Of a stretch of 64,000 nucleotides of DNA, positions 6,937-48,900 are shown in pieces. A model generated the notes under the pieces. That model was not told the DNA's origin. It saw only the letters and a program-made list of their open reading frames with translations, and made no database searches. The translations under genes and the position numbers were made by a program. Within the stretch, counting starts at the first letter, position 1. Every line of letters begins with the position of its first letter. The DNA comes from Arenicola marina (Eukaryota; Annelida; Polychaeta; Arenicolidae): positions 22,443,639-22,507,638 of the forward strand of contig OZ025263.1 of the NCBI GenBank assembly GCA_964019135.1, read 5' to 3'.

Positions 6937-6968
<32 letters not shown>

Positions 6969-21900: not shown

Positions 21901-24900
21901 TAGAAATATAGAAATAGACCCCAGCACCACATGTGAGGACTTAGGTGTTCACCAGTGTCGTCTCTTGTTGCTCTCCAGACACTCCCATGATGATCGCTGA
22001 GCCCGGACCCCGGTCCTTCCCCTTCTCGCCAGATGGCGCCCCCAGGTTTCCCGGTCAAGGTCCGCGATTTCCCGGAGAACTTTTGCGGATGCAAGGTGAG
22101 TAGAACCGCAAACAACGAAATGTGTTGCCAGGACAGCATATCCTCCCTGTGGCTCAGTGGGTAGTGCTCTTCAGATCGGCCACCCGTGTTCGATCTTTGG
22201 GTGAGTCTGGGATGTGTCCACATTGTTCTCAATGGCATGAGACGGTGTTTCATTTTGCTTAGTCCACGTGTGTACTGAAAGATACTTCAATTTTGAAATA
22301 CCGATATGTCTCTGCTCTTGGCCTCCAGATGTGCCAAAAGCGAAAATAATCCTAATCATAAGATGATGTTTACTTACATTTTGACATTTTTGTGAAGTTT
22401 AGTTTAGCGTAAGTGAGTAAGGATTATGAATACGGGCCCTGCGATTGGTGGTTCGCTGTTGACCCGCGCGGTGGCGCCACCGGGTATATTTCTGTGCAGG
22501 TAGTGACTTAATATAATCTGTTTGCAGGGCCTCGTTTCCCCTGCGCTCCGGGCCAGCCACCCTTCTCCAAGGCCGGGGGCCCGGGGGGTGAGGTGCCCGG
22601 CCTGGGCATGCGACCGGGGATGACCTCATCCTACGACCCCCAGAGCCAGCACAACGTACCCTTTCCGCAAACGTCAGGCGCGCAGCAAATGTATCCAGGT
22701 ATCCTAACGCGCCGTCCGTCCGTCCGTCTCCTGTGTTTTAAGTAAATGCATCTGTGACGTCACAATGGTATGACGTCACGTATGTCTTGATTTATTTATT
22801 TTTTCCTTTGTTGCCTATCAGTTTCGTTCCTAGTCAGTCTGTTTGCTTGATTACTCGGTATGTATCGTTGGTCAGCACTGGATCATGTTGGGTTATCGGT
22901 GTTTGTGACCTGCATGTGACCTGGTTACGTAAGGGCGTCCGCTGCGCACGCCATCTGGCGACTGGGCGCGCGACTAGGAGCCTTGTCGTTAGCTGTTAAC
23001 TTCTCACTGAAGCTCCTTGTATAAATAGTTAACGTTTCAGTCAACACTTTATTCGCCTGCTCAACGCGGTTATGACCTCGGGAATGGGGGGCGGATGTAT
23101 ACCGGTTTTAAACAAAGTATATATATTAGTATAAATAATCAGTCACATCTTGTGACTCGATCATCGCACAAAACGACCCATGGTACGAACAAAACTCGGG
23201 AATAACTGTAGGGGCACAAGGCAAAGTCCTTCTAGCATCTAGAAAGAACCTTTTGGTAGATACCGCACGTACTTCATCTTTACTGAATCGTATCTGTCGT
23301 GGTTAATGATTTTGTCTACGTTCCCCGAGAGCTCCCAGCTTATTCATGGGATAAATTTGTTATGGGAAAAATACAATAAATTATTGAAATATATATATGT
23401 TTGGTTGTACATATATTGCGGAGGCATATGAACAAAGTGTTGACTAAGTTTTGTTGATAAGTTGACTTAGCGTTGTTATCGCTGCTGGTGTGACTGTGCT
23501 TTGTGATGGCCACTTGTTGTACAATGTGGTACAGTGTGGTACAGTGCATATCTGTCGACCTTTGTAGGCATCGCCCCCATGACAACAGTTCCCGGCCAGC
23601 TAACGGCTACCGCGACACAGGCGCAAATGATCTCGTCAGATGGCGCCACCGTTCAGTTGCCGCTCCCTTCGACTCAGTCGTTGATGGGCTGCGCGGGCGG
23701 CGTCCAGGGGGGACCCCCTAGCTCCCTCCCCCTGGGTGCCTTCACGGGCCTGTCCTCCCCGTCCCTGCCACCCCTGGGCGGCGAGCAGCTCAAGGTCTCC
23801 CCCGGGGTGACCCACGCCGGTGGGGGTGGTGTGCAAGCCCCCCTCGTCGCCCCCCAGGAACCCCCCCAGCCCGCGCCCCCCAAGCGCAAGAAGCCCCGGC
23901 AGAAGAAAAAGAAGAAGGCTGACGACGTGCCCCCCGGATTCCCGCCCGGCCCCCCGGCCGCCGCCGCCACCCCCGAGGGGGGGTTTGAACTGGGGCCCAT
24001 GTCCTTCGGAGGGCTTGGCCAGCACGTGGCGGCTGACGGCGCCCTAGGTTGGTCCTGTTGTGTGACTCTTCCCCGAGTTATCTCTCTTCCATTATCTACT
24101 ACTCCACCCCGCCTCGCTCCGCTCCACACCACACCAGCACCGCGGCCCTCGGTGTGGGCGGCTCCAGGGTGGCCGAGGCATGGCTTCTACCGCACATCGC
24201 TCAGCCTGAGCAGCTTGCTCCAACCTCTCTCCCTCTCTCTCTCTTCTCTCTCCCCCACTCTCTCGCTCTCGCTGGTCCCAAATATATTCTCCATCTCGCT
24301 GTTGCGGAATCTCTCTCTGTTTCTCGCGCTCGGTCTTTTCTCTCATCTCTCTATCTGTCTCACCTCTCACTCTGCCTAGTGGTCTCTTCTCTAACCTCTC
24401 ACTCTGCCTGGTTTTCTCTTCTATAACCTCTGACTGCCTGGTTGTCTCTTCTCTCACCTCTCACTGCCTAATTGTCTCTTCTTTCAATCTGGACGGCTCT
24501 GTCCATCTCTCGGTCTGGCTCTATCTCGCTCCGTCTCTCACTGTTTCTCGCTGTCTTTTCTCCCTATCTCTCACTCGCTATCTGTCTCTGGTATTTTTCC
24601 TATATCGCTCACTCTCTGTGCCGGTCTCTGGCTATTTCTCTCTAGTTCCTTCCCTCTCCCTTTCTCTATCCCGGTCGGGTGCGTGGCTCTTCATTTGGTA
24701 ACATTTACCCGCATGTTCCCCTGGTCTTCGTCCCCTTGTATAAACGTCTTCTGTCTCAGAGCGGTAAGGTTGGATACTTGACGTCGCAAGATATCCGTTA
24801 GCATGTAGCGCTCTTGTCTGCATTCTCTCCCCGTATCAACGCATCTCTGTTCCTGGGTTCGGGTGGTGTCAATCCTCTCTGTACCTGAGTTCGGGTGGTG

Positions 24901-27900
24901 TCAATCCTCTCTGTTCCTGGGTTTGGGTGGTGTCAATCCTCTCTGTTCCTGGGTTCGGGTGGTGTCAATCCTCTCTGTTCCTGGGTTCGGGTGGTGTCAA
25001 TCCTCTCTGTTCCCGGGTTCGGGTGGTGTCAATCCTCTCTGTTCCTGGGTTCGGGTGGTGTCAATCCTCTCTGTACCTGGGTTCGGGTGGTGTCAATCCT
25101 CTCTGTTCCTGGGTTCGGGTGGTGTCAATCCTCTCTGTATCTGGGTTCGGGTGGTGTCAATCCTCTCTGTTCCTGGGTTCGGGTGGTGTCAATCCTCTCT
25201 GTTCCTGGGTTCGGGTGGTGTCAATCCTCTCTGTTCCTGGGTTCGGGTGGTGTCAATCCTCTCTGTATCTGGGTTCGGGTGGTGTCAATCCTCTTTGTTC
25301 CTGGGTTCGGGTGGTGTCAATCCTCTCTGTTCCTGGGTTCGGGTGGTGTCAATCCTCTCTGTTCCTGGGTTCGGGTGGTGTCAATCCTCTCTGTACCTGG
25401 GTTCGGGTGGTGTCAATCCTCTCTGTACCTGGGTTCGGGTGGTGTCAATCCTCACTGTTCCTGGGTTTGGGTGGTGTCAATCCTCTGTACCTGGGTTCGG
25501 GTGGTGTCAATCCTCTCTGTACCTGGGTTCGGGTGGTGTCGATCCTCTCTGTACCTGGGTTCGGGTGGTGTCAATCCTCTCTGTTCCTGGGTTCGGGTGG
25601 TGTCAATCCTCTCTGTATCTGGGTTCGGGTGGTGTCAATCCTCTCTGTTCCTGGGTTCGGGTGGTGTCAATCCTCTCTGTTCCTGGGTTCCGGTGGTGTC
25701 AATCCTCTCTGTTCCTGGGTTCGGGTGGTGTCAATCCTCTCTGTTCCTGGGTTCGGGTGGTGTCAATCCTCTCTGTTCCTGGGTTCGGGTGGTGTCAATC
25801 CTCTCTGTTCCTGGGTTCGGGTGGTGTCAATCCTCTGTACCTGGGTTCGGGTGGTGTCAATCCTCTCTGTACCTGGGTTCGGGTGGTGTCAATCCTCTCT
25901 GTTCCTGGGTTTGGGTGGTGTCAATCCTCTCTGTACCTGGGTTCGGGTGGTGTCAGTCCTCTCTGTACCTGGGTTCGGGTGGTGTCAATCCTCTCTGTAC
26001 CTGGGTTCGGGTGGTGTCAATCCTCTCTGTACCTGGGTTCGGGTGGTGTCAATCCTCTCTGTTCCTGGGTTTGGGTGGTGTCAATCCTCTCTGTTCCTGG
26101 GTTCGGGTGGTGTCAATCCTCTCTGTTCCTGGGTTCGGGTGGTGTCAATCCTCTGTTCCTGGGTTCGGGTGGTGTCAATCCTCTCTGTTCCTGGGTTTGG
26201 GTGGTGTCAATCCTCTCTGTACCTGGGTTCGGGTGGTGTCAATCCACTCTGTACCTGGGTTCGGGTGGTGTCAATCCTCTCTGTTCCTGGGTTCGGGTGG
26301 TGTCAATTCTCTCTGTTCCTGGGTTTGGGTGGTGTCAATCCCCTCTGTTCCTGGGTTTGGGTGGTGTCAATCCTCTCTGTTCCTGGGTTCGGGTGGTGTC
26401 AATCCTCTCTGTTCCTGGGTTCGGGTGGTGTCAATCCTCTCTGTACCTGGGTTCGGGTGGTGTCAATCTTCTCTGTTCCTGGGTTCGGGTGGTGTCAATC
26501 CTCTCTGTTCCTGGGTTCGGGTGGTGTCAATCCTCTCTGTTCCTGGGTTCGGGTGGTGTCAATCCTCTCTGTACCTGGATTCGGGTGGTGTCAATCCTCT
26601 CTGTTCCTGGGTTCGAGTGGTGTCAATCCTCTCTGTTCCTGGGTTCGGGTGGTGTCAATCCTCTCTGTTCCTGGGTTCGGGTGGTGTCAATCCTCTCTGT
26701 ACCTAGGTTCGGGTGGTGTCAATCCTCTCTGTTCCTGGGTTCGGGTGGTGTCAATCCTCTCTGTTCCTGGGTTCGGGTGTTGTCAATCCTCTCTGTTCCT
26801 GGGTTCGGGTGGTGTCAATCCTCTCTGTTCCTGGGTTCGGGTGGTGTCAATCCTCTGGTCCTAGGTTCGGGTGGTGTCAATCCTCTCTGTACCTGGGTTC
26901 GGGTGGAGTCAATCCTCTCTCTACCTGGGTTCGGGTGGTGTCAATCCTCTCTCTACTTCTGGGTTCGGGTGGTGTCAATTCTCTCTGTACCTGGGTTCGG
27001 GTGGTGTCAATCCTCTCTCTACTTCTGGGTTCGGGTGGTGTCAATCCTCTCTGTTCCTGGGTTCGGGTGGAGTCAATCCTCTCTGTACCTAGGTTCGGGT
27101 GGTGTCAATCCTCTCTGTACCTGAGTTCGGGTGGTGTCAATCCTCTCTGTTCCTGGGTTCGGGTGGTGTCAATCCTCTCTGTTCCTGGGTTCGGGTGGTG
27201 TCAATCCTCTCTGTTCCTGGGTTCGGGTGGTGTCAATCCTCTCTGTTCCTGGGTTCGGGTGGTGTCAATCCTCTCTGTTCCTGGGTTCGGGTGGTGTCAA
27301 TCCTCTGGTCCTAGGTTCGGGTGGTGTCAATCCTCTCTGTACCTGGGTTCGGGTGGAGTCAATCCTCTCTCTACCTGGGTTCGGGTGGTGTCAATCCTCT
27401 CTCTACTTCTGGGTTCGGGTGGTGTCAATTCTCTCTGTACCTGTGTTCGGGTGGTGTCAATCCTCTCTCTACTTCTGGGTTCGGGTGGTGTCAATCCTCT
27501 CTGTTCCTGGGTTCGGGTGGAGTCAATCCTCTCTGTACCTAGGTTCGGGTGGTGTCAATCCTCTCTGTTCCTGGGTTCGGGTGGAGTCAATCCTCTGTAC
27601 CTGGGTTCGGGTGTTGTCAATCCTCTCTGTACCTGGGTTCGAGTGGTGTCAATCCTCTCTGTTCCTGGGTTCGGGTGGTGTCAATCCTCTCTGTACCTGG
27701 GTTCGGGTGGTGTCAATCCTCTCTGTTCCTGGGTTCGGGTGGTGTCAATCCTCTCTGTTCCTGGGTTCGGGTGGTGTCAATCCTCTCTGTTCCTGGGTTT
27801 GGGTGGTGTCAATCCTCTCTGTTCCTGGGTTCGGGTGGTGTCAATCCTCTCTGTTCCTGGGTTCGGGTGGTGTCAATCCTCTCTGTTCCTGGGTTCGGGT

Positions 27901-30900
27901 GGTGTCAATCCTCTCTGTACCTGGGCTCGGGTGGTGTCAATCCTCTCTGTTCCTGGGTTCGGGTGGTGTCAATCCTCTCTGTTCCTGGGTTCGGGTGTTG
28001 TCAATCCTCTCTGTTCCTGGGTTCGGGTGGTGTCAATCCTCTCTGTTCCTGGGTTCGGGTGGTGTCAATCCTCTCTGTACCTGGGTTCGGGTGGTGTCAA
28101 TCCTCTCTGTTCCTGGGTTTGGGTGGTGTCAATCCTCTCTGTTCCTGGGTTCGGGTGGTGTCAATCCTCTCTGTTCCTGGGTTCGGGTGGTGTCAATCCT
28201 CTCTGTTCCTGGGTTCGGGTGGTGTCAATCCTCTCTGTTCCTGGGTTCGGGTGGTGTCAATCCTCTCTGTTCCTGGGTTTGGGTGGTGTCAATCCTCTCT
28301 GTACCTGGGTTCGGGTGGTGTCAATCCACTCTGTACCTGGGTTCGGGTGGTGTCAATCCTCTCTGTACCTGAGTTCGGGTGGTGTCAATCCTCTCTGTTC
28401 CTGGGTTCGGGTGGTGTCAATCCTCTCTGTTCCTGGGTTCGGGTGGTGTCAATCCTCTCTGTTCCTGGGTTCGGGTGGTGTCAATCCTCTCTGTTCCTGG
28501 GTTCGGGTGGTGTCAATCCTCTCTGTTCCTGGGTTCGGGTGGTGTCAATCCTCTGGTCCTAGGTTCGGGTGGTGTCAATCCTCTCTGTACCTGGGTTCGG
28601 GTGGAGTCAATCCTCTCTCTACCTGGGTTCGGGTGGTGTCAATCCTCTCTCTACTTCTGGGTTCGGGTGGTGTCAATTCTCTCTGTACCTGGGTTCGGGT
28701 GGTGTCAATCCTCTCTCTACTTCTGGGTTCGGGTGGTGTCAATCCTCTCTGTTCCTGGGTTCGGGTGGAGTCAATCCTCTCTGTACCTAGGTTCGGGTGG
28801 TGTCAATCCTCTCTGTTCCTGGGTTCGGGTGGAGTCAATCCTCTGTACCTGGGTTCGGGTGTTGTCAATCCTCTCTGTACCTGGGTTCGAGTGGTGTCAA
28901 TCCTCTCTGTTCCTGGGTTCGGGTGGTGTCAATCCTCTCTGTACCTGGGTTCGGGTGGTGTCAATCCTCTCTGTTCCTGGGTTCGGGTGGTGTCAATCCT
29001 CTCTGTTCCTGGGTTCGGGTGGTGTCAATCCTCTCTGTTCCTGGGTTTGGGTGGTGTCAATCCTCTCTGTTCCTGGGTTCGGGTGGTGTCAATCCTCTCT
29101 GTTCCTGGGTTCGGGTGGTGTCAATCCTCTCTGTTCCTGGGTTCGGGTGGTGTCAATCCTCTCTGTACCTGGGCTCGGGTGGTGTCAATCCTCTCTGTTC
29201 CTGGGTTCGGGTGGTGTCAATCCTCTCTGTTCCTGGGTTCGGGTGTTGTCAATCCTCTCTGTTCCTGGGTTCGGGTGGTGTCAATCCTCTCTGTTCCTGG
29301 GTTCGGGTGGTGTCAATCCTCTGGTCCTAGGTTCGGGTGGTGTCAATCCTCTCTGTACCTGGGTTCGGGTGGAGTCAATCCTCTCTGTACCTGGGTTCGG
29401 GTGGTGTCAATCCTCTCTCTACTTCTGGGTTCGGGTGGTGTCAATTCTCTCTGTACCTGGGTTCGGGTGGTGTCAATCCTCTCTCTACTTCTGGGTTCGG
29501 GTGGTGTCAATCCTCTCTGTTCCTGGGTTCGGGTGGAGTCAATCCTCTCTGTACCTGGGTTCGGGTGGTGTCAATCCTCTCTGTTCCTGGGTTCGGGTGG
29601 TGTCAATCCTCTCTGTACCTGGGTTCGGGTGGTGTCAATCCTCTCTCTACTTCTGGGTTCGGGTGGTGTCAATCCTCTCTCTACTTCTGGGTTCGGGTGG
29701 TGTCAATCGTCTCTCTACTTCTGGGTTCGGGTGGTGTCAATCCTCTCTGTTCCTGGGTTCGGGTGGTGTCAATCCTCTCTGTTCCTGGGTTCGGGTGGTG
29801 TCAATCCTCTCTGTACCTGGGTTCGGGTGGTGTCAATGCCCTGTGGCGTTGGTCTCCCTTGTTTTGGCATGTCCCTGACTAACGAGCCGGACTTTTGGCG
29901 TGCTTAGCCTATAGGTTCTGTGGTTGGCTCAACGTTTAACATCTGTCTTTCGGTGAATGTCCAGCGCTGTCTCCCTTCCATCCCATTGAGACTCACACGT
30001 ATTATGTTTCAGTGCCACGCTGAAACGTAGCTGTTTGCGAAATGTTTGCATGTTATTCAACACTGCACTATTTCTCCTTTTATTAATAGTGCAAGAAGCT
30101 GGCCTCTTGCGTTAGTTACGGGTGTAGATAAGATATTTAGTGATGCAATCTGATGGTAGAACACCTTACCTGAAAGATATCCTCTGTACTTACGTCGCAC
30201 GTAACGTCCTTTCCCTTTCCTTTGCTGGTTAATAATGTATTTTTTAATGTTTTTGTATTTAGATATATTTTCTGTACTAACAGTCTGGAGTGCTATATTT
30301 GTAAAACATTCAATTTTCTTGTTTAAGTTTGTATTTACTGTGGAGTGTGTAGGACGCACGGTCCTTTGAATTACATTTATTGATATTGGTTTTGTGGGGG
30401 ACTGATGTTATCATGCAGCTATCCCAAATATCATATCTTAAGTGATATAACCTACCAGGACTTAATGATGTGCGTAACGTTTGTTGTTTCGGATATGGAC
30501 GTCTTAAAGACAAACGCTTAAAGTTGCATGTCTAGCTGACCGTTGCAACGGGTGCACCAAACTAAACGTTTTATACTTTAGTGTCTAAATGGGTGTTCGT
30601 GGCAAGTAATAGTGTGCTGGATGTGTCAAGCGATGGCGAGATGTGGGGAGACGGCCATGTAGACCTGAGTCACCTTGTTTGGAGGGACAATTCAAGGAGT
30701 TTTATTGTTTGGTCATTGGCAGATATTTGGTCCAGGGTATGGTGTTTAAAGTTTGTTAGGAACCTTAAGGCCTTAGATTTGTGTTCTTATACTCAAACTC
30801 GATCTTCGCAAATAGCAAAACAGCTAGATATGCTACTTTAATATATCTAAACATGTAGATCTCTCACTACTTTGCTCATTGCCAATTTATCCTAGGACAA

Positions 30901-33900
30901 TAATGTAAATACGATTATTCGTGAATTTCGCCACTTATGTAACCAATCCCCCCCCCTCCTCCTCCCTCCTCCCTCCCCCTGATGCAGGCCAATCAATGAT
31001 GGGCCTCCCACCCCCCGGCCACCCGGCCCTCGGGGGCGGCCTTCACCGGGACAAAGACCGCCCGCCGTCCCACCTGCCCTTGCCCCCAGCCACCAGCGGC
31101 ATGTCGGAGCTGCAGAAGCTAGTCAACATGCAGCCCGAGCTGGCCCGCAGCCACGCCGGCGACCTGGGGCCGGGGGCGGGAGCCGGGGCCGCCCTGGCCG
31201 CCCACGCCCAAGCTCACGCCCAGGCCCAGGGTATCCCCACTGCCCAGCCCCTGGCCCCCCACATAGCGGCCCAGCAGGACGGCAGGATGATGGAGGGCCA
31301 TGAAGGCGAGCGAGGCTTGGACGGAAGTAAGTCTCAGTCTTCCTTGTGGCTTCAGTAGCAACCACGTGGTGCTGGATGCAGTGTTTTACATTCATTAAAT
31401 TTAATTAAAGTTGTATGCGCTTATTTCTTTAGTTTTAAGTTTCGTACGCTATTCTTTACAGGAAATATTAATTATATTTTTTTAAAAAATCTAAATTATA
31501 ATTTATAGATAATCTTAATTTTATTTTATAAATAATCTTAATTTTATTTTATAAATAATATAAATTTTATTTTATAAATAATCTTAATTTTATTTTATGA
31601 CTAATACTTTGTTGGCTTACAGCGATAGTTAATGTTGTAGCCATTATGGATAAAAATCCCAACTGTTTAGATATGTTTTGCACGGAACTTCATTCGTATG
31701 GTGTGTTTTCTCGTTCCTTATGTCTGCCATGTAATCCCGCCAGGTACCAAGTTGAAGAGTGGCCTCACGGAGGAGGAACTGAAGACATTGAAGCAGAATG
31801 TCCTGCTCAAGAAACTCCTCAGCTCGAAGCGAGGCGAACTGATGGCCGAGGTATGTATATTGGCTTCTTATTGCCATATACAGTTGAATTTGATTCTGGT
31901 TGCTATGGGAGATGTTTATGACGTCAGCAGGACGGCGAGGGAGCCTCCCTGGATCAGTTGGTAAGCGGGCTGAGCTGTTGATCAACAGGTTGTGGGTTCG
32001 AACCTGGCACCTACATCGGGGGCGTCTGACATCATGTCACTGTCCCGGGAGGTTTCTCGGCTCAACATTAGCCTGGGGCCGGCCCGACAGCTCTGTGGGT
32101 TAGGGCGCTCACATTGAGCGCTCTGGCCACCTAAGAGCCTAACGGCACGTGGATCTATGGTTAGAGCCCCGCTGTGGCCATGTCTGTGTGGTCGCAGGAT
32201 AAAGATGCCATGTCCTTATTCGCAAAGAGTAGGGGCTTATCCCCGAGGACATGGCTCCACTCTCCCTTCCTTCTCCCATTGACTCCCAATTATTTTCCTT
32301 AGGACGACGAGAATTTTTTATTTTGTTTACAAAAGTGACAGATTTCCAGATTTGTGGCGTCACATCATTTCTTTGTCCCCGGTAGGTGTCTCGGCCCAGG
32401 CTAACCTTGATGTGGTTGTGGTTTATTTGGTCTTGAAGGCCTTAAGGCCCAACTGACCCAACATATAATCATACAAACAGCTTGCATGGCACGCAGTGTT
32501 TTATAGAACACACATTTAGGTGGTGGAACAGACTATCTTCAAATAAGATGAAGTTCCTCAGGGTCGTTACCCTGCATCTACCCTACATCATTATGACACA
32601 TTAGGGTCCGATAAAGATCCGATGTTGGGGGGGGGGTTCCAAAACATAGAATCAATATATATCTTACGAATATCCGCCTACTTGGTACAACAGAACTGTA
32701 CCTGAAGTTTTTCCATTTGCAAGTATAGATGTAATTCTTAACAATAATAAATATCTGATTGACCAGTATCTTGTTTTGTCCGTTTCCTAACCCTAGCATA
32801 GCTGATTTAAAATTCAAATTATCATTTATTACATGCACATTTCTACCGTCTAGCGCTGTAGATAGGCTGGTCCAAAGTCGCTGTGCAACCTCACATTCCC
32901 AGATGTAGATGTTCTATAGTTTCATTAACCTTATGACAAAAGCAACATTTTTCAGTGTCTACCAGTTCACATAGAAACAAAAATGTATTGGTAATTACAG
33001 TTCTGCATAAAAATGATATTGGAAGCTTCGCAGTTTCTCGTCAACAACAGAACTCTTGTGTACATGCGATATCAGCCTAAGACACGCACGGTTTGCTGTT
33101 GGCAGGACGGGGATGACTCCGTGGAGCTGACGCCGGAGCAGCAGCGGCAGCTGGAGATGATCGAGAGCATGCCGCTCACCATGGAGCTGGAGATCTCCCA
33201 GGACGAGTGGGACAAGAAGACACCAGAGGAGAAGGACCAGATCCTAGGTGAGCATTATACAGAATCTGTTAATCCTGGCTGTGACTTGAGGCCCCATCTC
33301 TCTCCACACCAGAGGAGAGGGATCAGATGCTGGGTGAGCATTATACAGAATCTGTTAATCCTGGCTGTGACTTGAGGCCCCATCTCTCTCCACACCAGAG
33401 GAGAGGGATCAGAGGCTGGGTGAGCATTATACAGAATCTGTTAATCCTGGCTGTGACTTGAGACCCCATCTCTCTCCACACCAGAGGAGAGGGATCAGAT
33501 GCTGGGTGAGCATTATACAGAATCTGTTAATCCTGGCTGTGACTTGAGGCCCCATCTCTCCACACCAGAGGAGAGGGATCAGATGCTGGGTGAGCATTAT
33601 ACAGAATCTGTTAATCCTGGCTGTGACTTGAGGCCCCATCTCTCTCCACACCAGAGGAGAGGGATCAGATCCTGGGTGAGCATTATACAGAATCTGTTAA
33701 TCCTGGCTGTGACTTGAGGCCCCATCTCTCTCCACACCAGAGGAGAGGGATCAGATCCTGGGTGAGCATTATACAGAATCTGTTAATCCTGGCTGTGACT
33801 TGAGGCCCCATCTCTCTCCACACCAGAGGAGAGGGATCAGATCCTGGGTGAGCATTATACAGAATCTGTTAATCCTGGCTGTGACTTGAGGCCCCATCTC

Positions 33901-36900
33901 TCTCCACACCAGAGGAGAAGGACCAGATCCTAGGTGAGCATTATACAGAATCTGTTAATCCTGGCTGTGACTTGAGACCCCATCTCTCTCCACACCAGAG
34001 GAGAGGGATCATATCCTGGGTGAGCATTATACAGAATCTGTTAATCCTGGCTGTGACTTGAGGCCCCATCTCTCTCCACACCAGAGGAGAGGGATCATAT
34101 CCTGGGTGAGCATTATACAGAATCTGTTAATCCTGGCTGTGACTTGAGACCCCATCTCTCTCCACACCAGAGGAGAGGGATCAGATCCTAGGTGAGCATT
34201 ATACAGAATCTGTTAATCCTGGCTGTGACTTGAGGCCCCATCTCTCTCCACACCAGAGGAGAGGGATCACATCCTAGGTGAGCATTATACAGAATCTGTT
34301 AATCCTGGCTGTGACTTGAGGCCCCATCTCTCTCCACACCAGAGGAGAGGGATCAGATGCTGGGTGAGCATTATACAGAATCTGTTAATCCTGGCTGTGA
34401 CTTGAGACCCCATCTCTCTCCACACCAGAGGAGAGGGATCAGAGGCTGGGTGAGCATTATACAGAATCTGTTAATCCTGGCTGTGACTTGAGGCCCCATC
34501 TCTCTCCACACCAGAGGAGAGGGATCAGATGCTGGGTGAGCATTATACAGAATCTGTTAATCCTGGCTGTGACTTGAGGCCCCATCTCTCTCCACACCAG
34601 AGGAGAGGGATCAGAGGCTGGGTGAGCATTATACAGAATCTGTTAATCCTGGCTGTGACTTGAGGCCCCATCTCTCTCCACACCAGAGGAGAGGGATCAG
34701 ATGCTGGGTGAGCATTATACAGAATCTGTTAATCCTGGCTGTGACTTGAGGCTCCATCTCTCTCCACACCAGAGGAGAGGGATCAGAGGCTGGGTGAGCA
34801 TTATACAGAATCTGTTAATCCTGGCTGTGACTTGAGGCCCCATCTCTCTCCACACCAGAGGAGAGGGATCAGAGGCTGGGTGAGCATTATACAGAATCTG
34901 TTAATCCTGGCTGTGACTTGAGGCCCCATCTCTCTCCACACCAGAGGAGAGGGATCAGATGCTGGGTGAGCATTATACAGAATCTGTTAATCCTGGCTGT
35001 GACTTGAGGCCCCATCTCTCTCCACACCAGAGGAGAGGGATCAGAGGCTGGGTGAGCATTATACAGAATCTGTTAATCCTGGCTGTGACTTGAGACCCCA
35101 TCTCTCTCCACACCAGAGGAGAGGGATCAGATGCTGGGTGAGCATTATACAGAATCTGTTAATCCTGGCTGTGACTTGAGGCCCTATCTCTCTCCACACC
35201 AGAGGAGAGGGATCAGATGCTGGGTGAGCATTATACAGAATCTGTTAATCCTGGCTGTGACTTGAGGCCCCATCTCTCTCCACACCAGAGGAGAGGGATC
35301 ATATCCTGGGTGAGCATTATACAGAATCTGTTAATCCTGGCTGTGACTTGAGGCCCCATCTCTCTCCACACCAGAGGAGAGGGATCAGAGGCTGGGTGAG
35401 CATTATACAGAATCTGTTAATCCTGGCTGTGACTTGAGACCCCATCTCTCTCCACACCAGAGGAGAGGGATCAGAGGCTGGGTGAGCATTATACAGAATC
35501 TGTTAATCCTGGCTGTGACTTGAGACCCCATCTCTCTCCACACCAGAGGAGAGGGATCAGATGCTGGGTGAGCATTATACAGAATCTGTTAATCCTGGCT
35601 GTGACTTGAGGCCCCATCTCTCTCCACACCAGAGGAGGGGGATCAGAGGCTGGGTGAGCATTATACAGAATCTGTTAATCCTGGCTGTGACTTGAGGCCC
35701 CATCTCTCTCCACACCAGAGGAGAGGGATCAGAGGCTGGGTGAGCATTATACAGAATCTGTTAATCCTGGCTGTGACTTGAGGCCCCATCTCTCTCCACA
35801 CCAGAGGAGAGGGATCATATCCTGGGTGAGCATTATACAGAATCTGTTAATCCTGGCTGTGACTTGAGACCCCATCTCTCTCCACACCAGAGGAGAGGGA
35901 TCAGATGCTGGGTGAGCATTATACAGAATCTGTTAATCCTGGCTGTGACTTGAGGCCCCATCTCTCTCCACACCAGAGGAGAGGGATCAGAGGCTGGGTG
36001 AGCATTATACAGAATCTGTTAATCCTGGCTGTGACTTGAGGCCCCATCTCTCTCCACACCAGAGGAGAGGGATCATATCCTGGGTGAGCATTATACAGAA
36101 TCTGTTAATCCTGGCTGTGACTTGAGGCCCCATCTCTCTCCACACCAGAGGAGAGGGATCAGATGCTGGGTGAGCATTATACAGAATCTGTTAATCCTGG
36201 CTGTGACTTGAGACCCCATCTCTCTCCACACCAGAGGAGAGGGATCACATCCTGGGTGAGCATTATACAGAATCTGTTAATCCTGGCTGTGACTTGAGAC
36301 CCCATCTCTCTCCACACCAGAGGAGAGGGATCATATCCTGGGTGAGCATTATACAGAATCTGTTAATCCTGGCTGTGACTTGAGGCCCTATCTCTCTCCA
36401 CACCAGAGGAGAGGGATCAGATGCTGGGTGAGCATTATACAGAATCTGTTAATCCTGGCTATGACTTGAGGCCCCATCTCTCTCCACACCAGAGGAGAGG
36501 GATCATATCCTGGGTGAGCATTATACAGAATCTGTTAATCCTGGCTGTGACTTGAGACCCCATCTCTCTCCACACCAGAGGAGAGGGATCAGATGCTGGG
36601 TGAGCATTATACAGAATCTGTTAATCCTGGCTATGACTTGAGGCCCCATCTCTCTCCACACCAGAGGAGAGGGATCAAAGGCTGGGTGAGCATTATACAG
36701 AATCTGTTAATCCTGGCTGTGACTAGGGCATTATACAGAATCTGTTAATCCTGGCTGTGACTTGAGACCCCATCTCTCTCCACACCAGAGGAGAGGGATC
36801 ATATCCTGGGTGAGCATTATACAGAATCTGTTAATCCTGGCTGTGACTTGAGGCCCCATCTCTCTCCACACCAGAGGAGAGGGATCATATCCTGGGTGAG

Positions 36901-39900
36901 CATTATACAGAATCTGTTAATCCTGGCTGTGACTTGAGGCCCCATCTCTCTCCACACCAGAGGAGAGGGATCAGAGGCTGGGTGAGCATTATACAGAATC
37001 TGTTAATCCTGGCTGTGACTTGAGGCCCCATCTCTCTCCACACCAGAGGAGAGGGATCAGAGGCTGGGTGAGCATTATACAGAATCTGTTAATCCTGGCT
37101 GTGACTTGAGGCCCCATCTCTCTCCACACCAGAGGAGAGGGATCAGATGCTGGGTGAGCATTATACAGAATCTGTTAATCCTGGCTGTGACTTGAGGCCC
37201 CATCTCTCTCCACACCAGAGGAGAGGGATCAGAGGCTGGGTGAGCATTATACAGAATCTGTTAATCCTGGCTGTGACTTGAGACCCCATCTCTCTCCACA
37301 CCAGAGGAGAGGGATCAGATGCTGGGTGAGCATTATACAGAATCTGTTAATCCTGGCTATGACTTGAGGCCCCATCTCTCTCCACACCAGAGGAGAGGGA
37401 TCAAAGGCTGGGTGAGCATTATACAGAATCTGTTAATCCTGGCTGTGACTAGGGCATTATACAGAATCTGTTAATCCTGGCTGTGACTTGAGACCCCATC
37501 TCTCTCCACACCAGAGGAGAGGGATCATATCCTGGGTGAGCATTATACAGAATCTGTTAATCCTGGCTGTGACTTGAGGCCCCATCTCTCTCCACACCAG
37601 AGGAGAGGGATCATATCCTGGGTGAGCATTATACAGAATCTGTTAATCCTGGCTGTGACTTGAGGCCCCATCTCTCTCCACACCAGAGGAGAGGGATCAG
37701 ATGCTGGGTGAGCATTATACAGAATCTGTTAATCCTGGCTGTGACTTGAGGCCCCATCTCTCTCCACACCAGAGGAGAGGGATCAGAGGCTGGGTGAGCA
37801 TTATACAGAATCTGTTAATCCTGGCTGTGACTTGAGACCCCATCTCTCTCCACACCAGAGGAGAGGGATCAGATGCTGGGTGAGCATTATACAGAATCTG
37901 TTAATCCTGGCTGTGACTTGAGGCCCCATCTCTCCACACCAGAGGAGAGGGATCAGATGCTGGGTGAGCATTATACAGAATCTGTTAATCCTGGCTGTGA
38001 CTTGAGGCCCCATCTCTCTCCACACCAGAGGAGAGGGATCAGATCCTGGGTGAGCATTATACAGAATCTGTTAATCCTGGCTGTGACTTGAGGCCCCATC
38101 TCTCTCCACACCAGAGGAGAGGGATCAGATCCTGGGTGAGCATTATACAGAATCTGTTAATCCTGGCTGTGACTTGAGGCCCCATCTCTCTCCACACCAG
38201 AGGAGAGGGATCAGATCCTGGGTGAGCATTATACAGAATCTGTTAATCCTGGCTGTGACTTGAGGCCCCATCTCTCTCCACACCAGAGGAGAAGGACCAG
38301 ATCCTAGGTGAGCATTATACAGAATCTGTTAATCCTGGCTGTGACTTGAGACCCCATCTCTCTCCACACCAGAGGAGAGGGATCATATCCTGGGTGAGCA
38401 TTATACAGAATCTGTTAATCCTGGCTGTGACTTGAGGCCCCATCTCTCTCCACACCAGAGGAGAGGGATCATATCCTGGGTGAGCATTATACAGAATCTG
38501 TTAATCCTGGCTGTGACTTGAGACCCCATCTCTCTCCACACCAGAGGAGAGGGATCAGATCCTAGGTGAGCATTATACAGAATCTGTTAATCCTGGCTGT
38601 GACTTGAGGCCCCATCTCTCTCCACACCAGAGGAGAGGGATCACATCCTAGGTGAGCATTATACAGAATCTGTTAATCCTGGCTGTGACTTGAGGCCCCA
38701 TCTCTCTCCACACCAGAGGAGAGGGATCAGATGCTGGGTGAGCATTATACAGAATCTGTTAATCCTGGCTGTGACTTGAGACCCCATCTCTCTCCACACC
38801 AGAGGAGAGGGATCAGAGGCTGGGTGAGCATTATACAGAATCTGTTAATCCTGGCTGTGACTTGAGGCCCCATCTCTCTCCACACCAGAGGAGAGGGATC
38901 AGATGCTGGGTGAGCATTATACAGAATCTGTTAATCCTGGCTGTGACTTGAGGCCCCATCTCTCTCCACACCAGAGGAGAGGGATCAGAGGCTGGGTGAG
39001 CATTATACAGAATCTGTTAATCCTGGCTGTGACTTGAGGCCCCATCTCTCTCCACACCAGAGGAGAGGGATCAGATGCTGGGTGAGCATTATACAGAATC
39101 TGTTAATCCTGGCTGTGACTTGAGGCTCCATCTCTCTCCACACCAGAGGAGAGGGATCAGAGGCTGGGTGAGCATTATACAGAATCTGTTAATCCTGGCT
39201 GTGACTTGAGGCCCCATCTCTCTCCACACCAGAGGAGAGGGATCAGAGGCTGGGTGAGCATTATACAGAATCTGTTAATCCTGGCTGTGACTTGAGGCCC
39301 CATCTCTCTCCACACCAGAGGAGAGGGATCAGATGCTGGGTGAGCATTATACAGAATCTGTTAATCCTGGCTGTGACTTGAGGCCCCATCTCTCTCCACA
39401 CCAGAGGAGAGGGATCAGAGGCTGGGTGAGCATTATACAGAATCTGTTAATCCTGGCTGTGACTTGAGACCCCATCTCTCTCCACACCAGAGGAGAGGGA
39501 TCAGATGCTGGGTGAGCATTATACAGAATCTGTTAATCCTGGCTGTGACTTGAGGCCCTATCTCTCTCCACACCAGAGGAGAGGGATCAGATGCTGGGTG
39601 AGCATTATACAGAATCTGTTAATCCTGGCTGTGACTTGAGGCCCCATCTCTCTCCACACCAGAGGAGAGGGATCATATCCTGGGTGAGCATTATACAGAA
39701 TCTGTTAATCCTGGCTGTGACTTGAGGCCCCATCTCTCTCCACACCAGAGGAGAGGGATCAGAGGCTGGGTGAGCATTATACAGAATCTGTTAATCCTGG
39801 CTGTGACTTGAGACCCCATCTCTCTCCACACCAGAGGAGAGGGATCAGAGGCTGGGTGAGCATTATACAGAATCTGTTAATCCTGGCTGTGACTTGAGAC

Positions 39901-42900
39901 CCCATCTCTCTCCACACCAGAGGAGAGGGATCAGATGCTGGGTGAGCATTATACAGAATCTGTTAATCCTGGCTGTGACTTGAGGCCCCATCTCTCTCCA
40001 CACCAGAGGAGGGGGATCAGAGGCTGGGTGAGCATTATACAGAATCTGTTAATCCTGGCTGTGACTTGAGGCCCCATCTCTCTCCACACCAGAGGAGAGG
40101 GATCAGAGGCTGGGTGAGCATTATACAGAATCTGTTAATCCTGGCTGTGACTTGAGGCCCCATCTCTCTCCACACCAGAGGAGAGGGATCATATCCTGGG
40201 TGAGCATTATACAGAATCTGTTAATCCTGGCTGTGACTTGAGACCCCATCTCTCTCCACACCAGAGGAGAGGGATCAGATGCTGGGTGAGCATTATACAG
40301 AATCTGTTAATCCTGGCTGTGACTTGAGGCCCCATCTCTCTCCACACCAGAGGAGAGGGATCAGAGGCTGGGTGAGCATTATACAGAATCTGTTAATCCT
40401 GGCTGTGACTTGAGGCCCCATCTCTCTCCACACCAGAGGAGAGGGATCATATCCTGGGTGAGCATTATACAGAATCTGTTAATCCTGGCTGTGACTTGAG
40501 GCCCCATCTCTCTCCACACCAGAGGAGAGGGATCAGATGCTGGGTGAGCATTATACAGAATCTGTTAATCCTGGCTGTGACTTGAGACCCCATCTCTCTC
40601 CACACCAGAGGAGAGGGATCACATCCTGGGTGAGCATTATACAGAATCTGTTAATCCTGGCTGTGACTTGAGACCCCATCTCTCTCCACACCAGAGGAGA
40701 GGGATCATATCCTGGGTGAGCATTATACAGAATCTGTTAATCCTGGCTGTGACTTGAGGCCCTATCTCTCTCCACACCAGAGGAGAGGGATCAGATGCTG
40801 GGTGAGCATTATACAGAATCTGTTAATCCTGGCTATGACTTGAGGCCCCATCTCTCTCCACACCAGAGGAGAGGGATCATATCCTGGGTGAGCATTATAC
40901 AGAATCTGTTAATCCTGGCTGTGACTTGAGACCCCATCTCTCTCCACACCAGAGGAGAGGGATCAGATGCTGGGTGAGCATTATACAGAATCTGTTAATC
41001 CTGGCTATGACTTGAGGCCCCATCTCTCTCCACACCAGAGGAGAGGGATCAAAGGCTGGGTGAGCATTATACAGAATCTGTTAATCCTGGCTGTGACTAG
41101 GGCATTATACAGAATCTGTTAATCCTGGCTGTGACTTGAGACCCCATCTCTCTCCACACCAGAGGAGAGGGATCATATCCTGGGTGAGCATTATACAGAA
41201 TCTGTTAATCCTGGCTGTGACTTGAGGCCCCATCTCTCTCCACACCAGAGGAGAGGGATCATATCCTGGGTGAGCATTATACAGAATCTGTTAATCCTGG
41301 CTGTGACTTGAGGCCCCATCTCTCTCCACACCAGAGGAGAGGGATCAGAGGCTGGGTGAGCATTATACAGAATCTGTTAATCCTGGCTGTGACTTGAGGC
41401 CCCATCTCTCTCCACACCAGAGGAGAGGGATCAGAGGCTGGGTGAGCATTATACAGAATCTGTTAATCCTGGCTGTGACTTGAGGCCCCATCTCTCTCCA
41501 CACCAGAGGAGAGGGATCAGATGCTGGGTGAGCATTATACAGAATCTGTTAATCCTGGCTGTGACTTGAGGCCCCATCTCTCTCCACACCAGAGGAGAGG
41601 GATCAGAGGCTGGGTGAGCATTATACAGAATCTGTTAATCCTGGCTGTGACTTGAGACCCCATCTCTCTCCACACCAGAGGAGAGGGATCAGATGCTGGG
41701 TGAGCATTATACAGAATCTGTTAATCCTGGCTATGACTTGAGGCCCCATCTCTCTCCACACCAGAGGAGAGGGATCAAAGGCTGGGTGAGCATTATACAG
41801 AATCTGTTAATCCTGGCTGTGACTAGGGCATTATACAGAATCTGTTAATCCTGGCTGTGACTTGAGACCCCATCTCTCTCCACACCAGAGGAGAGGGATC
41901 ATATCCTGGGTGAGCATTATACAGAATCTGTTAATCCTGGCTGTGACTTGAGGCCCCATCTCTCTCCACACCAGAGGAGAGGGATCATATCCTGGGTGAG
42001 CATTATACAGAATCTGTTAATCCTGGCTGTGACTTGAGGCCCCATCTCTCTCCACACCAGAGGAGAGGGATCAGAGGCTGGGTGAGCATTATACAGAATC
42101 TGTTAATCCTGGCTGTGACTTGAGGCCCCATCTCTCTCCACACCAGAGGAGAGGGATCAGAGGCTGGGTGAGCATTATACAGAATCTGTTAATCCTGGCT
42201 GTGACTTGAGGCCCCATCTCTCTCCACACCAGAGGAGAGGGATCAGATGCTGGGTGAGCATTATACAGAATCTGTTAATCCTGGCTGTGACTTGAGGCCC
42301 CATCTCTCTCCACACCAGAGGAGAGGGATCAGATGCTGGGTGAGCATTATACAGAATCTGTTAATCCTGGCTGGGACTTGAGGCCCCATCTCTCTCCACA
42401 CCAGAGGAGAGGGATCATATCCTGGGTGAGCAAAGAGGATTTCATCCGGATTGCAGTGGGTTTTTTTTTGGTTTTTTTAAAGTTTGTTGGCAAACGTATA
42501 TCGTGCCATTCCTGGTGATAGAAGAAGGAAATGAGATGTTACGTTATGTACTGGGTCCAGTTGTTGAACTACCCTGAGAGATGTGTGCCCGCGACCACTG
42601 ACATCTTTTTCCAGTCTCATGATAAAGGCACGTGGATCGCTGGTTCGAGCCCCGCCGTGGCGATGTGTGTGTGGTCGCAGGATAAAGGTCCCATGTCTTT
42701 CTTCGCAAAGAGTAGGGTATTACCCCCGGGGACATGGCTCCACTCTCCCTTCCTTCTCCCATTGACGCGATATAACCAAAAGTGGTTAAAGCGTCTTGAA
42801 TATCCAACCAACCTGCCACATGAACAGAATGCCGCCATCAATGTAGGTAGGAGCTACTGTAGGGAGGTTGGGACGTGCACGCCTGGTATCAATATGACCA

Positions 42901-45900
42901 GTCCTACAATTTACGTAGGAACTACTTCAAATGTTTAATAGCGAACGTTCACACCTCATAAAAAAAAAAACGCCATCACATCTCGTCTTATGTCGTGTAC
43001 GTTACGTGGTTCGTTCAGAATTCCGCCGCGAGGAGTTCGAGCGGCGCCACCGTCTGGGCGCGCACGCCGTGGAGGGCCCGCCGAAGAAGAAACGGCGCAA
43101 GAAGGCGAAAGACGCGGCGGCGGCTGCTGCGGCGGCCACGGCGGCGACGGCGGCGGAACCCCGGGAGCCGGGCGCCCGGAAGAAGGTGCGGAAAGTGCCG
43201 ATGAACCCCAGCAACCTGGCGGACACCATCGCGGCGGTGGCGGCGGGCGCCGGGGAGCTGACGGCCCCGCCCTCGGCCACCTCGGCGGCCACCACCCCGG
43301 ACACCCCGCCGCCCCCCAGCGTGGTCCCCGCCAAGGAGGAGGACGTCGACTTCGGCGCCGTCACCGAGAAGATCGTGCAGCAGCTGCGCGCGCTGCCGGT
43401 CATCGCGCTGCAGGAACCCGACATCCGGGGCCTACGCTCCGGAAGTCCGGTCTGCGGCTCCATAACGGACATCATTGGTGAGTGGGCGACGCTCCAAACG
43501 CGACGGAACAATTCTGTCTTATTATATCGTGAAAATGTGTACGCTAAAAACTCGACAGTCTGTACCTTATTATAATGCAAAAATGTGTGATTTTTGAAGT
43601 GTGTGATGTGAGCATATGCAGGTGTATAGGTTGGGTGTGTAATGGAGGGACCGTATAATGCAGGGACCACTGTATGACTGAAGCTTACTCGTAACCCTTA
43701 TATGCAGTCGCGGAGAGTTACAAACTTACATAATTAATACATTATGTCCGTCGTAAAGTTGGGGCCGCCCGGATAGCTCAGTGGGTTAGAGCGCTCGGAT
43801 TGAACGCTCTGGCCAGCTGAGGGCCTAACGGCACGTGGCTCGGTGGTTCGCGCCCCGTGATAGTCATGTCTGTGTGGTCGCAGGATAAAGATCTCATGTC
43901 CATCTTCGCAAAGAATAGGGGGTTAACCCCCGGGGACATTGCTCCGCTCTTCCCTTTCTTTTCCCATTGATTCCCCTATGACCAAAATTGATTAAAGCGT
44001 CCTGAATATACAGCCAACCGTCGCAAGTTTTCTTCTCGTGACTTTTTCAGATTTGGTAATAACGCTAGTAACCGTGGATGTCTCCTTTACCGATGGCCTT
44101 ATGCGCAGTTCTATTAGAGATACGGATTTTGTTTTTTTATCGTGCCATGGCTGTACAAGTATTGCATTTGCACTGACAGACGAGTTGGATGTGAGCGGTC
44201 CGTTCGGCTGTGGTAACCTGAAGGGACTGCCGGATTTCTACAACCTGTTCCCGTTCGCCGTCCACGTGGCGCCCTCTATCGAGGAGAGTCCGGTCCCCAG
44301 GCTGGTGGAGGATGGAGGCCCGAAGCCCGGATTAGAGTCGGAAATGCAACGCCGCCTTATGGGAGACGGTGCCTCGGCATTCTCCGGTAAGAGCCGCCTG
44401 TTGACGCAGTTAGCGGGGGTGGTTATTGAGCCTGGTAGTAGTCACTTTATAGACATTATTTGAAACTCGGTGCATCTCCTTGGCCAAATCGTTGTTTGTA
44501 CATATTATAAAATGCTTTCTCCGACTAGGCAATTAATTTTTTAATAGTATCTTTTTTTTTGGTATACAGTATGTTCTGTATTGCTTTCCATAGAAATAAT
44601 TTATAATTTATTCTAATCATAAAAATAATAATAATAACTCGGTTCCCAGCGGTTCTATTGTACATGCATAATATCGCATTATTTGATGTGTGTCAATCTG
44701 CAGCAGCGCTCCCTGGCGGTGCCGAGCGCCTGTTGCCAGGCAACCAGGGGTTCCCCCCAGGGTTCCTGGGCCCCAACGAGAGGTTCATGGGTCTACTGGA
44801 CCAGGCCCCCTACCGCGGGGTCTCCGACAAGCTGATGCTGCCCAGTCCCCCCTTCATGGAGGCCAGACCCGAGCTGTTGTCAAGGTGAGTCTCCATGGCA
44901 ACGACCTGACGCTACTTGCATCACATGGTATAGGGATACATCCGTCAGACCATAACCCGTTTTTCTTCATGTATAACTATGCACCAAATATGTCATTACT
45001 CAACTACTGAAAATTGAAACTTAATTTTGTCCGTTCTTCCACGTTACGGTAAAATCTATAGCATAGCTCACTTATTACACATCCCAACCAGTTGCAATCG
45101 ATTTCGTCGAGGCTAGCATCGAAATCAGTTTAAACATATTTTTATTTACGCAATCGGAAAGCAGGCATTGCCCCTACAAATTGCTTTTGCTTCTTCATAA
45201 TGGATATTATGAAGTGATTCCACCTGGACCTGTTTCGCTTTTTTCTTGTATGATAAATGGTGTGCCTCGCTCCAATGGAGGGAAATGAAGTAAGTGGCAC
45301 CGACATTGTATCTAAGACGTGGTTTTAAGACGGTGCAGATGTGTGCTTTTAGCGTGCGGAGACGTCGCTCCGCTATGGTGCACAAGACTCCACTAAGAGC
45401 CGACTCGGTGCAGTAAGTGGCTATAGCATAAGGTCTATGGCCAATTCATTGTTCTCCAGTTCAGTTTATGTTTTTGTTTCCCTTGCGTTTGTTCTATTTC
45501 CGCCTTATTCGACCGTGCGCCATCGCCAAGATATAGCTCCTGGACTGAAAATATTAGGCGGAATGGCGGAGGGGTTCTCAGAATTACTGTGGAGATGAGT
45601 TTAACCACGTGTCTAGCCACATATCCGCCTCCTGTCTAACCACGTGTCTAGCCACGTATCCACCACATGTCTAACCACGTATCCGCCACATGTCTAACCA
45701 CGTATCCACCACAAGTCTAAGCACGTGTCTAACCACATGTCTAGCCACGTATCCACCACATGTCTAGCCACGTATCCATCACATGTCTAACCACGTATCC
45801 ACCACACACCCACATGTCTAGCCACACATCCGCCACTTGTCTAGTCACGTACCCGCCATGTCTAAGGACATATCTAACCACGTGGCTAGCCATGTATCCA

Positions 45901-48900
45901 CCACGTGTCTAACCACGCATCCACCACATGTCTAGCCACGTGTCGGCCACATGTCTAACCACGTATCCACCACATGTCTAACCACGTATCCACCACATGT
46001 CTAACCACATGTCTAACCACGTGTCTCCCCGCTGTCGGCGCAGGGCCAGCGACCAGTCCCCGGCCACCGTGGTGTCCTCCTCCTCCCCGGAGTTGAGCCT
46101 TGAGGAGCGGCTGGGTCAGACCCGCTACCCGGGCCTCCGCCTCATCCCCACCGCCGACAGCGACAAGACCGAGGACCAGCGGGCCCTGGCGCGGGCCTCC
46201 CCAGAGGTGCCCGTCATCTGCCCCATCCCAGTCAAAGGTAAGCCCGTCATCTGCCCCATCCCAGTCAAAGGTAAGCCCGTCATCTGCCCCATCCCAGTCA
46301 AAGGTAAGCCCGTCCTCTGCCCCATCCCAGTCAAAGGTAAGCCCGTCATCTGCCCCATCCCAGTCAAAAGTAAGCCCGTCATCTGCCCCATCCCGGTCAA
46401 GATAACCCCGTCTCTGCCGTCTGTCCCTGCCGTCTCCTCTCCGCAGACGCATTTTCTTTGTTAAAGGGAAACTATGAAACCAAAAGAGTTCAACCCGAGA
46501 AGAATTTTGTTTTCATTAATCTCATAACAGAGTAATCATCTATGAAACGCTAACCACTGCCCCAGTCCTAGAGGTAGGCCATTGCAGCTGATGATGGCGT
46601 CACGGTAGCGGTCAGATATCTCCCACCTCGCACGGGAGATAAATATAAAAAGCTATAGGAGAATAGTTTGGCTAGGAGTTTGATATGGGGACCCCGTAGT
46701 GTTGTGTATAACGCGGTGTATATCAGGTGCCTCTCTCTCTCTCCCCGTGCCAGCCTCCCCTGTCAAGCTGAAGGAGGAGGATCTCGAGCGGGACATGGCG
46801 GAGGCAGGAATACCAAAGCTGGAGAAGGTAAGCCTACCATGTCGGAGGCCTCGGTGCCGTCATGCTGCGCCAGATGTATATATAATCTCATTACTCGTTG
46901 TGGTTACACATTCAAGACACGCGTTACTATAAAACTGTGGTGTAGCATTTCTAGAAACGTATAACTTAAACATCTACCCGATTACAAAATGTGAGATTAA
47001 TATCCTTTGTGAGTCTTACAGTGTCTTACACGGGTCTAATTTACTTTCCACTGACGAAAAATTCCTCAGTGTTTTTGTCCCTTTTCCGGTATATTTCCGA
47101 CTCGAAACGATTTAGGTAAATAACAGAATGCTTATATTTCACTAATAAGAGGTTTAAGTAAGCCTATGTTGTAGTCGTTATGTAATATTTGTGTAGAATC
47201 ATTTGTTGACCTTTTTCACTTGTGCCTTATGATGAATTTATTAATTTGAGTTTTTGATCCGTTTAGTTTACTCTTTTGTATTGTGTCGTATTCGAGGTGA
47301 TCTTTCACATGTGTATTGGTTGTTGAAAGCCTCGCAAAATAAATAAAAATTTAGGCAAAAAAATTAACTGGTCGTCCCCAATATCAAGGCTTGAACGACA
47401 AAGCAAGTGTTTTACTTGTCAAACTATGGTGTTCTCTTGTTTAGTCTTGGACGTACTGAATAGACTTAAACCACATAAGCAAAGCGTGTTGTGACTATGT
47501 AATGATGTCCCCTGTTTGTTTCATCAGGCGGAAAAGGAGAACGCCGACCTTGCCCCCCTGGAGGAGGTCAAGTCCAAGATGTTGCATTCCTCGTTTCCGC
47601 AACCGCTGCGCGACAACCAGATGTCCGTGACCTTGACCTTGAACACGCACGCGGCAGACGACATAGGCGGAGTGATCGCCGCCATCGCCGACCTGCTCAA
47701 GATCGCCGTGCCCCCCTCCTACGAGATCAGTCGCAGCCCCTCCCCCACCCACCACCTCTACAAGACCGGGGTTGGCGCCAAGCGTGAGTGTCCCGCTCCG
47801 ATAACCCAGCCGGGGCCGGCCCGATAGCTCAGTGGGTTAGAGCCCTCACCTTGAGCGCTCTGGCCACCTGAGAGCCTGACGGCACGTGGTTCGGTGGTTC
47901 GCGCCCCGCTGTGGCCATGTCTGTGTGGTAGCAGGATAAAGATCCCATGTCTTTCTTCGTAAAGAGTAGGTGGTTGCCCCCGGGGACATGGCTCCACTCT
48001 CCATTCGTTCTCCAATTGACGCGATATAACCAGAGTTGGTTAAAGCGTCCTGAATATACCAACCAACCGATAACCCAGCTTTCCCGACAATTTATTTTAG
48101 GGGGTTACTCAAAAAGAATACCGTCGAGTCACCTCCAACACATATATTTATAGAAAACAGGACTAAAAAAACCGACTATATATATATATAAATATAAGTT
48201 TCTCTTTATATCCATCCTAAAACAGTATAACAGTGATATATAATTGCTGACTCTCTGACTCGTTGTATTCGCCATGTGTTTCAGATAAGGAAGAGGCTGT
48301 CAACATTCAGTCGTTGATTAAGTCCAAACCCAAGTTTTGCCGTCACTGTGACGTCGTCGTTCTAAACTCGGGCGTCCGCAAGAAGAAAACCGAGATATCA
48401 TACCTCTGTCGAGAAGAGCGGGTAAGTCATTAATTAGCGGTAGTACCGGATCAACGGTTGCCCTCCCCATGACGAAAGAACTTGTAAGTCTCGAACCACA
48501 TATAATTTACTGTCTATCCAGAAAAAAGGTGATTGTACGGAACTAAGACTCTCCTGCTTCTGTGGCAAACAGTAAGTGAAGATATCAGTGAACATTCCCT
48601 CATCCTATTTGGACCGAGACCCATGGACACTGCCCGAAATATGGGTGTGCGTTTACATCACCTGCCAAGGCGCTTGGTGTATAAATACTATGGTACACAC
48701 TTTATGGAGAGCGAGAACGCTGTTTGCAATTATCCACATGTATGTATATTAACGACTGCAAACACAGTCTGAAGAAACACATACTTGGACAAACCGCATG
48801 AGTTCCTCCATGTAAGTGTTTATCGACACATCTGTACATATCAGTGCGTGCCTATCTGGTACCATGCTGACCGATGGCCCGGAAGTGCGAATTAAACGTT

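Follow-up and report, generated by a model that had tools for sequence, protein, structure and literature searches.

The window analysed here is a stretch of 64,000 nucleotides (nt) from the annelid Arenicola marina (C18:22443639-22507638 in the genome searches). Within the genome, a 4.3-kb piece of the 15.9-kb mitochondrial contig carries, as read by eye, nad3, nad2, cox1, a tRNA with GTT anticodon, cox2, atp8 and cox3, an order that suggests an annelid; ARAGORN reported 0 tRNA genes on this piece. An amphioxus, considered on account of its mirages, and an arthropod, considered because some peptides looked Trr-like, were set aside as hosts after searches that gave no GFP-family and no cuticle-protein match, respectively. 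Both absences are weak, since the control genomes were equally without a match. It carries a predicted gene which, judged by its exons, is a homologue of KMT2C/D. Pfam matches were obtained for four of the five exons tested, namely an extended-PHD type exon (51987-52229), a FYRN exon (52874-53113) and two SET exons (58766-58882 and 60567-60746). For the exon at 56425-56553, no family was matched in the Pfam comparison. The best solved-structure relatives are KMT2D and KMT2C (two exons searched). Exon 15 of this gene, numbered as in an earlier sequence-only reading of the stretch, is followed by a tandem array of 86-base-pair (bp) units, each laid out like a small intron with a small exon. The array is real and striking. 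It is best read as a passive minisatellite at an exon-intron boundary; use of its units as mini-introns is possible.

Exons 15 and 16, the array and its parts lie on the forward strand. Predicted exon 15 (33106-33247) follows the acceptor tgctgttggcag/GACGGG (slashes mark splice boundaries) and has an open frame ending with KDQIL plus one nucleotide. The array (33220-42431) starts 28 nt upstream of the donor, within the exon. Its units consist of 28 nt of exon end, including the exonic ACACCAG, and 58 nt of intron start, and the final 28 nt of exon 15 represent copy one of the exonic part. The first gtgagc (33248-33253) is predicted to be the authentic exon-15 donor. Between 33247 and 42426 there are 106 occurrences of GGTGAGC, which delimit 105 donor-to-donor units. 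Ninety-nine of these comprise 86 nt, two comprise 84 nt (starts 33506 and 37880) and four comprise 124 nt (starts 36686, 37412, 41060 and 41786). The long units, such as that at 36686-36809, contain a partial duplication of 38 nt that brings no second donor. The last gtgagc (42426-42431) continues with AAAGAGG in a truncated final copy. The remaining intron (42432-43018) leads to the exon-16 acceptor ggttcgttcag and to exon 16 (43019-43477), which is in phase with exon 15. Tandem-repeat scores of the array range from 6562 to 11897, well above chance.

Each of the 105 units has a gtgagc donor, a CACACCAG acceptor and a 21-nt cassette free of stops. CACACCAGAGGAG is found 105 times, and in every case 21 nt separate its AG from the following gtgagc. 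The acceptor is a composite of the intronic ctctctcc and the exonic acaccag. Exon 15 reads ...EEKDQIL plus one nucleotide (phase 1) and exon 16 continues this frame, so that the cassettes are in phase 1-1. The sequence-only reading had reported about 107 mini-introns at 33248-42430. The repeat itself stands, with the count corrected to 105 units and 106 donors, the start moved to 33220 inside exon 15, the acceptor recognised as a composite and the last copy as truncated after gtgagc. The splicing-module layout with stop-free, in-frame cassettes was described correctly, and the position of the unit across the donor agrees with the runaway duplication of the exon-15 boundary that had been proposed. 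Thus, the observation is confirmed and its earlier interpretation is partly supported.

The first 4,454 bp of the array recur without mismatch 4,374 bp downstream, which corresponds to 50 units. The two copies of this block (33248-37621 and 37622-41995, 4,374 bp) show zero mismatches against each other. Unless made by the assembler, the doubling is, on this identity, a recent one. A search of the genome (867 Mb, 762 contigs) with the 86-bp unit gave no match outside the array among the at least 109 matches listed. A tandem duplication of the exon was considered and rejected, as only the final 28 of the 142 nt of exon 15 lie within the unit.

Unit variation and splicing potential

For the counting of columns, the 38-nt partial duplication was removed from the four long units and the 2-nt gap of the two short units, which sits in the pyrimidine tract, was filled. 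Brought to 86 columns in this way, the 105 units fall into 19 types. Twelve columns are variable (34, 35, 44, 46, 48, 71, 72, 76, 79, 81, 82 and 85), and columns 1-33 and 49-70 are invariant. All 12 variable columns miss the 16 signal columns (P = 0.07); at this value, selection on the splice signals was not adopted as the cause of the intact sites.

The cassettes comprise 10 distinct sequences, none of which contains a stop codon, and encode EERDQML, EERDQRL, EERDHIL, EERDQIL, EEKDQIL and EEGDQRL. Two of the 105 match the final 21 nt of exon 15 exactly, which is the state expected to be ancestral. The commonest type (34/105) differs from the exon end at 4 of 21 positions, as counted by eye. 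A hand count gave six nonsynonymous and three synonymous events among the cassette changes. The freedom from stops is weakly informative because only 2 of 60 possible single changes in the cassette could create one. Variation is in excess in the cassette (7 of 21 columns, compared with 5 of 65 in the intron part, P = 0.007). This excess was discounted: at four of the seven differing columns exon 15 has the same state, and the events are few.

Splice-site matrices were built from the other predicted sites of the same gene (about 20 sites). These were 19 donors and 20 acceptors positioned by eye on the basis of consensus and open frames, to which two array-internal donors were added later; all of them are predictions. 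The unit donor outscores 2 of 18 predicted donors and the exon-15 donor 6 of 18, and the score of the unit donor is reached by 27 of 745 random intronic GTs. The unit acceptor outscores 2 of 20 predicted acceptors and is equalled or exceeded by 187 of 533 random intronic AGs. Its matrix score is 0.9, compared with 7.1 for the acceptor of exon 16. The 19 introns delimited in the gene range from 234 to 9,771 nt, some of which may contain undetected exons, whereas the would-be intron of the unit has 65 nt.

Boundary arrays in the window and in the genome

Four further arrays in the window, all on the forward strand, span predicted splice sites of the gene. An array of 52-bp units (3.1 copies, 10752-10914) contains the predicted acceptor at 10904. 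Arrays of 33-bp units are found at 21368-21507 (4.2 copies), with CCAG/GTGAGG at the predicted exon end 21398, and at 46209-46418 (6.4 copies), with AAAG/GTAAGC at the predicted exon end 46237. Both exons have open frames, and the frames remain open through the listed copies. These copies may provide alternative donors that add 11 residues each, or they may be coding repeats. The fourth array (42 bp, 29.7 copies, 58881-60148) begins at the donor of the first SET exon (58882). Because four sibling arrays span predicted splice sites and the pattern recurs genome-wide, a general mutational process is favoured over a device specific to exon 15.

Several details of these arrays deserve description. 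The 52-bp array lies before an exon, and its unit, like the 86-bp one, carries both types of splice site: ttggcttgcag/TGCCGGCGG/gtaagc amounts to an intron-like segment of 43 nt and a cassette of 9 nt, a length that stays in frame. In two arrays the AG and GT abut directly, as acgtag/gtgagg at 58881-60148 and as gttacag/gtgagag at C1:2331000-2338999. Such arrays resemble chains of zero-length exons or recursive splice sites. A 102-bp array (51379-51975) ends just before the AG of the acceptor of the extended-PHD exon, and its copies read gcGA where the exon has gcAG.

Of the 21 arrays of the window, 5 include a boundary from the set of 41 predicted ones (acceptor 10904; donors 21398, 33247, 46237 and 58882). 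Random placement in 20,000 trials gave a mean of 0.91 boundary arrays and five or more in 0.15% of trials (P = 0.0015). Taken from the window alone, this excess is suggestive and the main case rests elsewhere. The surrounding 264 kb (C18:22343639-22607638) hold 72 array rows with periods of at least 20, which cover 21.7% of the region. Large minisatellites are among them, with 156 copies of 32 bp (window positions 24844-29837) and 226 copies of 38 bp. Eleven rows have GGTRAG in their forward unit, three of them being parts of the 86-bp array, and one row has it in its reverse unit; for the reversed motif the numbers are three and two, respectively. Outside the window, one of four inspected GGTRAG arrays follows an exon-like open frame, 18.6 kb before the window. 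Acceptor motifs showed no clear excess in the 72 array units of the 264 kb.

Genome-wide, tandem triples of a motif were counted (for CAGGTGAG, three occurrences at 34-64 bp spacing), with the reversed pattern as control; long arrays weight these counts. CAGGTGAG gave 15,934 triples (9,953 + 5,981) versus 2,888 (1,213 + 1,675) for the reversed motif, a 5.5-fold excess. Single occurrences numbered 55,511 (30,178 + 25,333) versus 21,270 (9,903 + 11,367), a 2.6-fold excess. Since 5.5-fold exceeds 2.6-fold, arrays of CAGGTGAG go beyond the excess of the motif itself. For AAGGTAAG, 7,058 triples (3,682 + 3,376) were counted versus 956 (313 + 643), with one run of the pentamer AAGGT included in the counts. 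The acceptor-type motif TTTCAG gave 15,907 triples versus 10,755. As this excess is only 1.48-fold and the 264 kb show none that is clear, acceptor-type arrays were rejected as a comparable phenomenon.

Inspection by eye covered small samples, all taken from one end of a single contig. Four arrays account for the first 100 CAGGTGAG places listed, and an exon-like frame ends at the start of each. One of these exons is presumably an HDAC6-like zinc-finger exon, whose next exon follows the array. Six of the ten listed AAGGTAAG arrays were inspected, of which three start at a clear exon-like end. Of the others, that at 13738546 lies antisense beside an exon that we take to be dynein-like, that at 19632391 is ambiguous and that at 465534 has no exon. 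The presumably dynein-like exon on the minus strand (C1:13738200-13738560) has apparent boundary arrays on both sides. The one TTTCAG array inspected among seven listed runs into an exon, which we assume to be mitochondrial-peptidase-like. Neither of two reversed-motif controls inspected, among 11 or 12 listed, adjoins an evident exon within the approximately 100-300 bases of flank viewed. On these sequence patterns, boundary arrays seem to be widespread in the genome.

Probable origin and possible use of the array

Most likely, with a probability of about 0.72, the array is a passive minisatellite of the type described as mirages in amphioxus: exon 15 would be joined to exon 16 and the array discarded. 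As read from the sequence, a tandem duplication of 86 bp across the exon-15 donor (28 nt of exon, 58 nt of intron) would have been followed by amplification and later by the doubling of the 50-unit block. The breakpoint would have fused the intronic pyrimidine tract to the exonic ACACCAG/AGG and so have created an accidental 3' splice site in every copy. Because of this acceptor, each copy resembles a 65-nt intron with a 21-nt exon, a layout that is directly seen. In the precursor of the messenger RNA (mRNA) the array would be part of a 9.8-kb intron. By analogy with amphioxus, the spliceosome would join exon 15, occasionally a cassette, to the better-scoring exon-16 acceptor, and the rest would be removed. 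Rare inclusion would be mild with stop-free, in-frame cassettes, which may help the array to persist in an important gene.

Several observations weigh against this interpretation. The unit acceptor has 10 pyrimidines in the 12 positions from -15 to -4, which puts its tract level with the richest in the gene; 3 of the 20 predicted acceptors and 21 of the 533 random AGs have as many or more. The matrix and pyrimidine measures conflict over this site. Donor, ttaat, AG and frame are intact in all units, and selection for use would give the same picture. Without the two boundaries placed in arrays that had already been noticed, the window count falls to 3 of 21 arrays with 39 boundaries (P = 0.053). 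Furthermore, three of the four GGTRAG arrays inspected outside the window (129270, 148430 and 148951, within the 264 kb) lack an exon. If the internal sites were regularly used, the protein would receive a variable number of EERDQML-like heptapeptides and its length would be set by that of the array. The unbroken series of 105 donors, CACACCAG acceptors and stop-free cassettes, together with the pyrimidine tract, is in line with such use, and the purine-rich cassette may resemble splicing enhancers. Regular use is nevertheless unlikely in view of the short would-be intron (65 nt versus 234 nt for the shortest delimited one), the acceptor that is weak by the local matrix and the cassette changes, which show no sign of protein constraint; the lack of stops carries little weight here, as so few changes could produce one. 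Equally doubtful is the broader proposal that splice donors are birth hot spots of minisatellites in this genome and that the KMT2 array represents about 105 splicing-competent mini-introns, whose partial use would add variable charged heptapeptides and differ between individuals.

The array might also act as a splicing buffer, as proposed in the sequence-only reading, without entering the mRNA, with donors that compete for U1 and slow or tune the splicing of the intron. The number of donors (106 within 9.2 kb) and their advantage over most random GTs would suit this role. It is very unlikely, as donor arrays recur at other places in the genome, which suggests a mutational by-product. Regarding the origin, the first event may have been an insertion with duplication of a 34-nt target, either of an introner-like element or through break repair with filler, and tandem amplification would have come afterwards. 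In favour of this, 52 nt of other sequence have ACACCAG...gtgagc on either side, and the last copy stops after gtgagc. A later deletion is the simplest reading of this truncation, with an insertion and its duplicated target as the alternative. All of the at least 109 listed matches to the unit are at the array locus, and at their ends other donor arrays (A-C on C1, for example) retain more of the intron part, which is the outcome of simple tandem duplication; an insertion is thus very unlikely. That part of the copy number was made by the assembler is the least probable reading. The 4,454 bp of identity would be compatible with it, but recent block duplication is usual in minisatellites, and one half alone would still contain about 50 units.

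The interest of the array lies in its wider setting. Most evidence for the gain of introns by tandem duplication is inferred from isolated cases. With many young boundary arrays in one genome, it would become possible to trace at many loci how a duplicated boundary turns into a usable mini-intron, and such a genome would also prompt the question of what draws minisatellites to donors.

Comparison with known systems

Introner elements are ready-made intron units that are dispersed in genomes. The KMT2 unit is likewise ready-made, but it is confined to one locus. An introner or other mobile element was rejected, as the listed unit matches all fall inside the array instead of at many loci. Intron-breeding tandem arrays were reportedly described by Zhuo in 2007. 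Human exon-intron boundary repeats in segmental duplications can yield novel introns according to excerpts of PMC2812944. Both share with the KMT2 array that minisatellites at boundaries may create introns and alternative splicing. They differ in that they rest on transcripts and in their units, which in the gene-modifying set average 30 bp with four repeats.

Intron gain by tandem duplication is reviewed in PMC4974935. In the excerpts of that review, as in the KMT2 array, the duplication supplies both splice sites (GT and AG) of the would-be intron. The KMT2 unit spans an existing donor instead of an exonic AGGT, and the protein would not remain unchanged, since a copy in use would add 21 nt, or seven residues. 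No paper on boundary minisatellites in annelids was found in the open-access literature, judged by title and the start of the abstract.

The closest likeness is to the mirages of amphioxus, which excerpts of PMC3087553 and PMC3902484 describe as exon-intron boundary minisatellites in Adh3, the globins BflGb6 and BflGb9, and TnC and PGBD5 (the latter two in PMC3902484). In these excerpts, reverse transcription-polymerase chain reaction and Adh3 data suggest that regular splicing is undisturbed by the spare splice sites, and mirages are proposed by their authors as a source of introns (PMC3087553). As in these mirages, the KMT2 unit spans a boundary, the first copy is the gene's own boundary, AG/GT signals are present in each copy and the copies are near-identical, with 19 types among 105. 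The KMT2 array differs in its annelid host and its approximately 105 copies, and it is known here from DNA. Additionally, its unit holds by chance a donor, a branch-like ttaat, a pyrimidine tract, an AG and an in-frame cassette. The comparison suggests that the mirage phenomenon of amphioxus is apparently present in another phylum. In its sequence features the KMT2 array is a mirage; its copy number, the accidental completeness of its module and its host set it apart.

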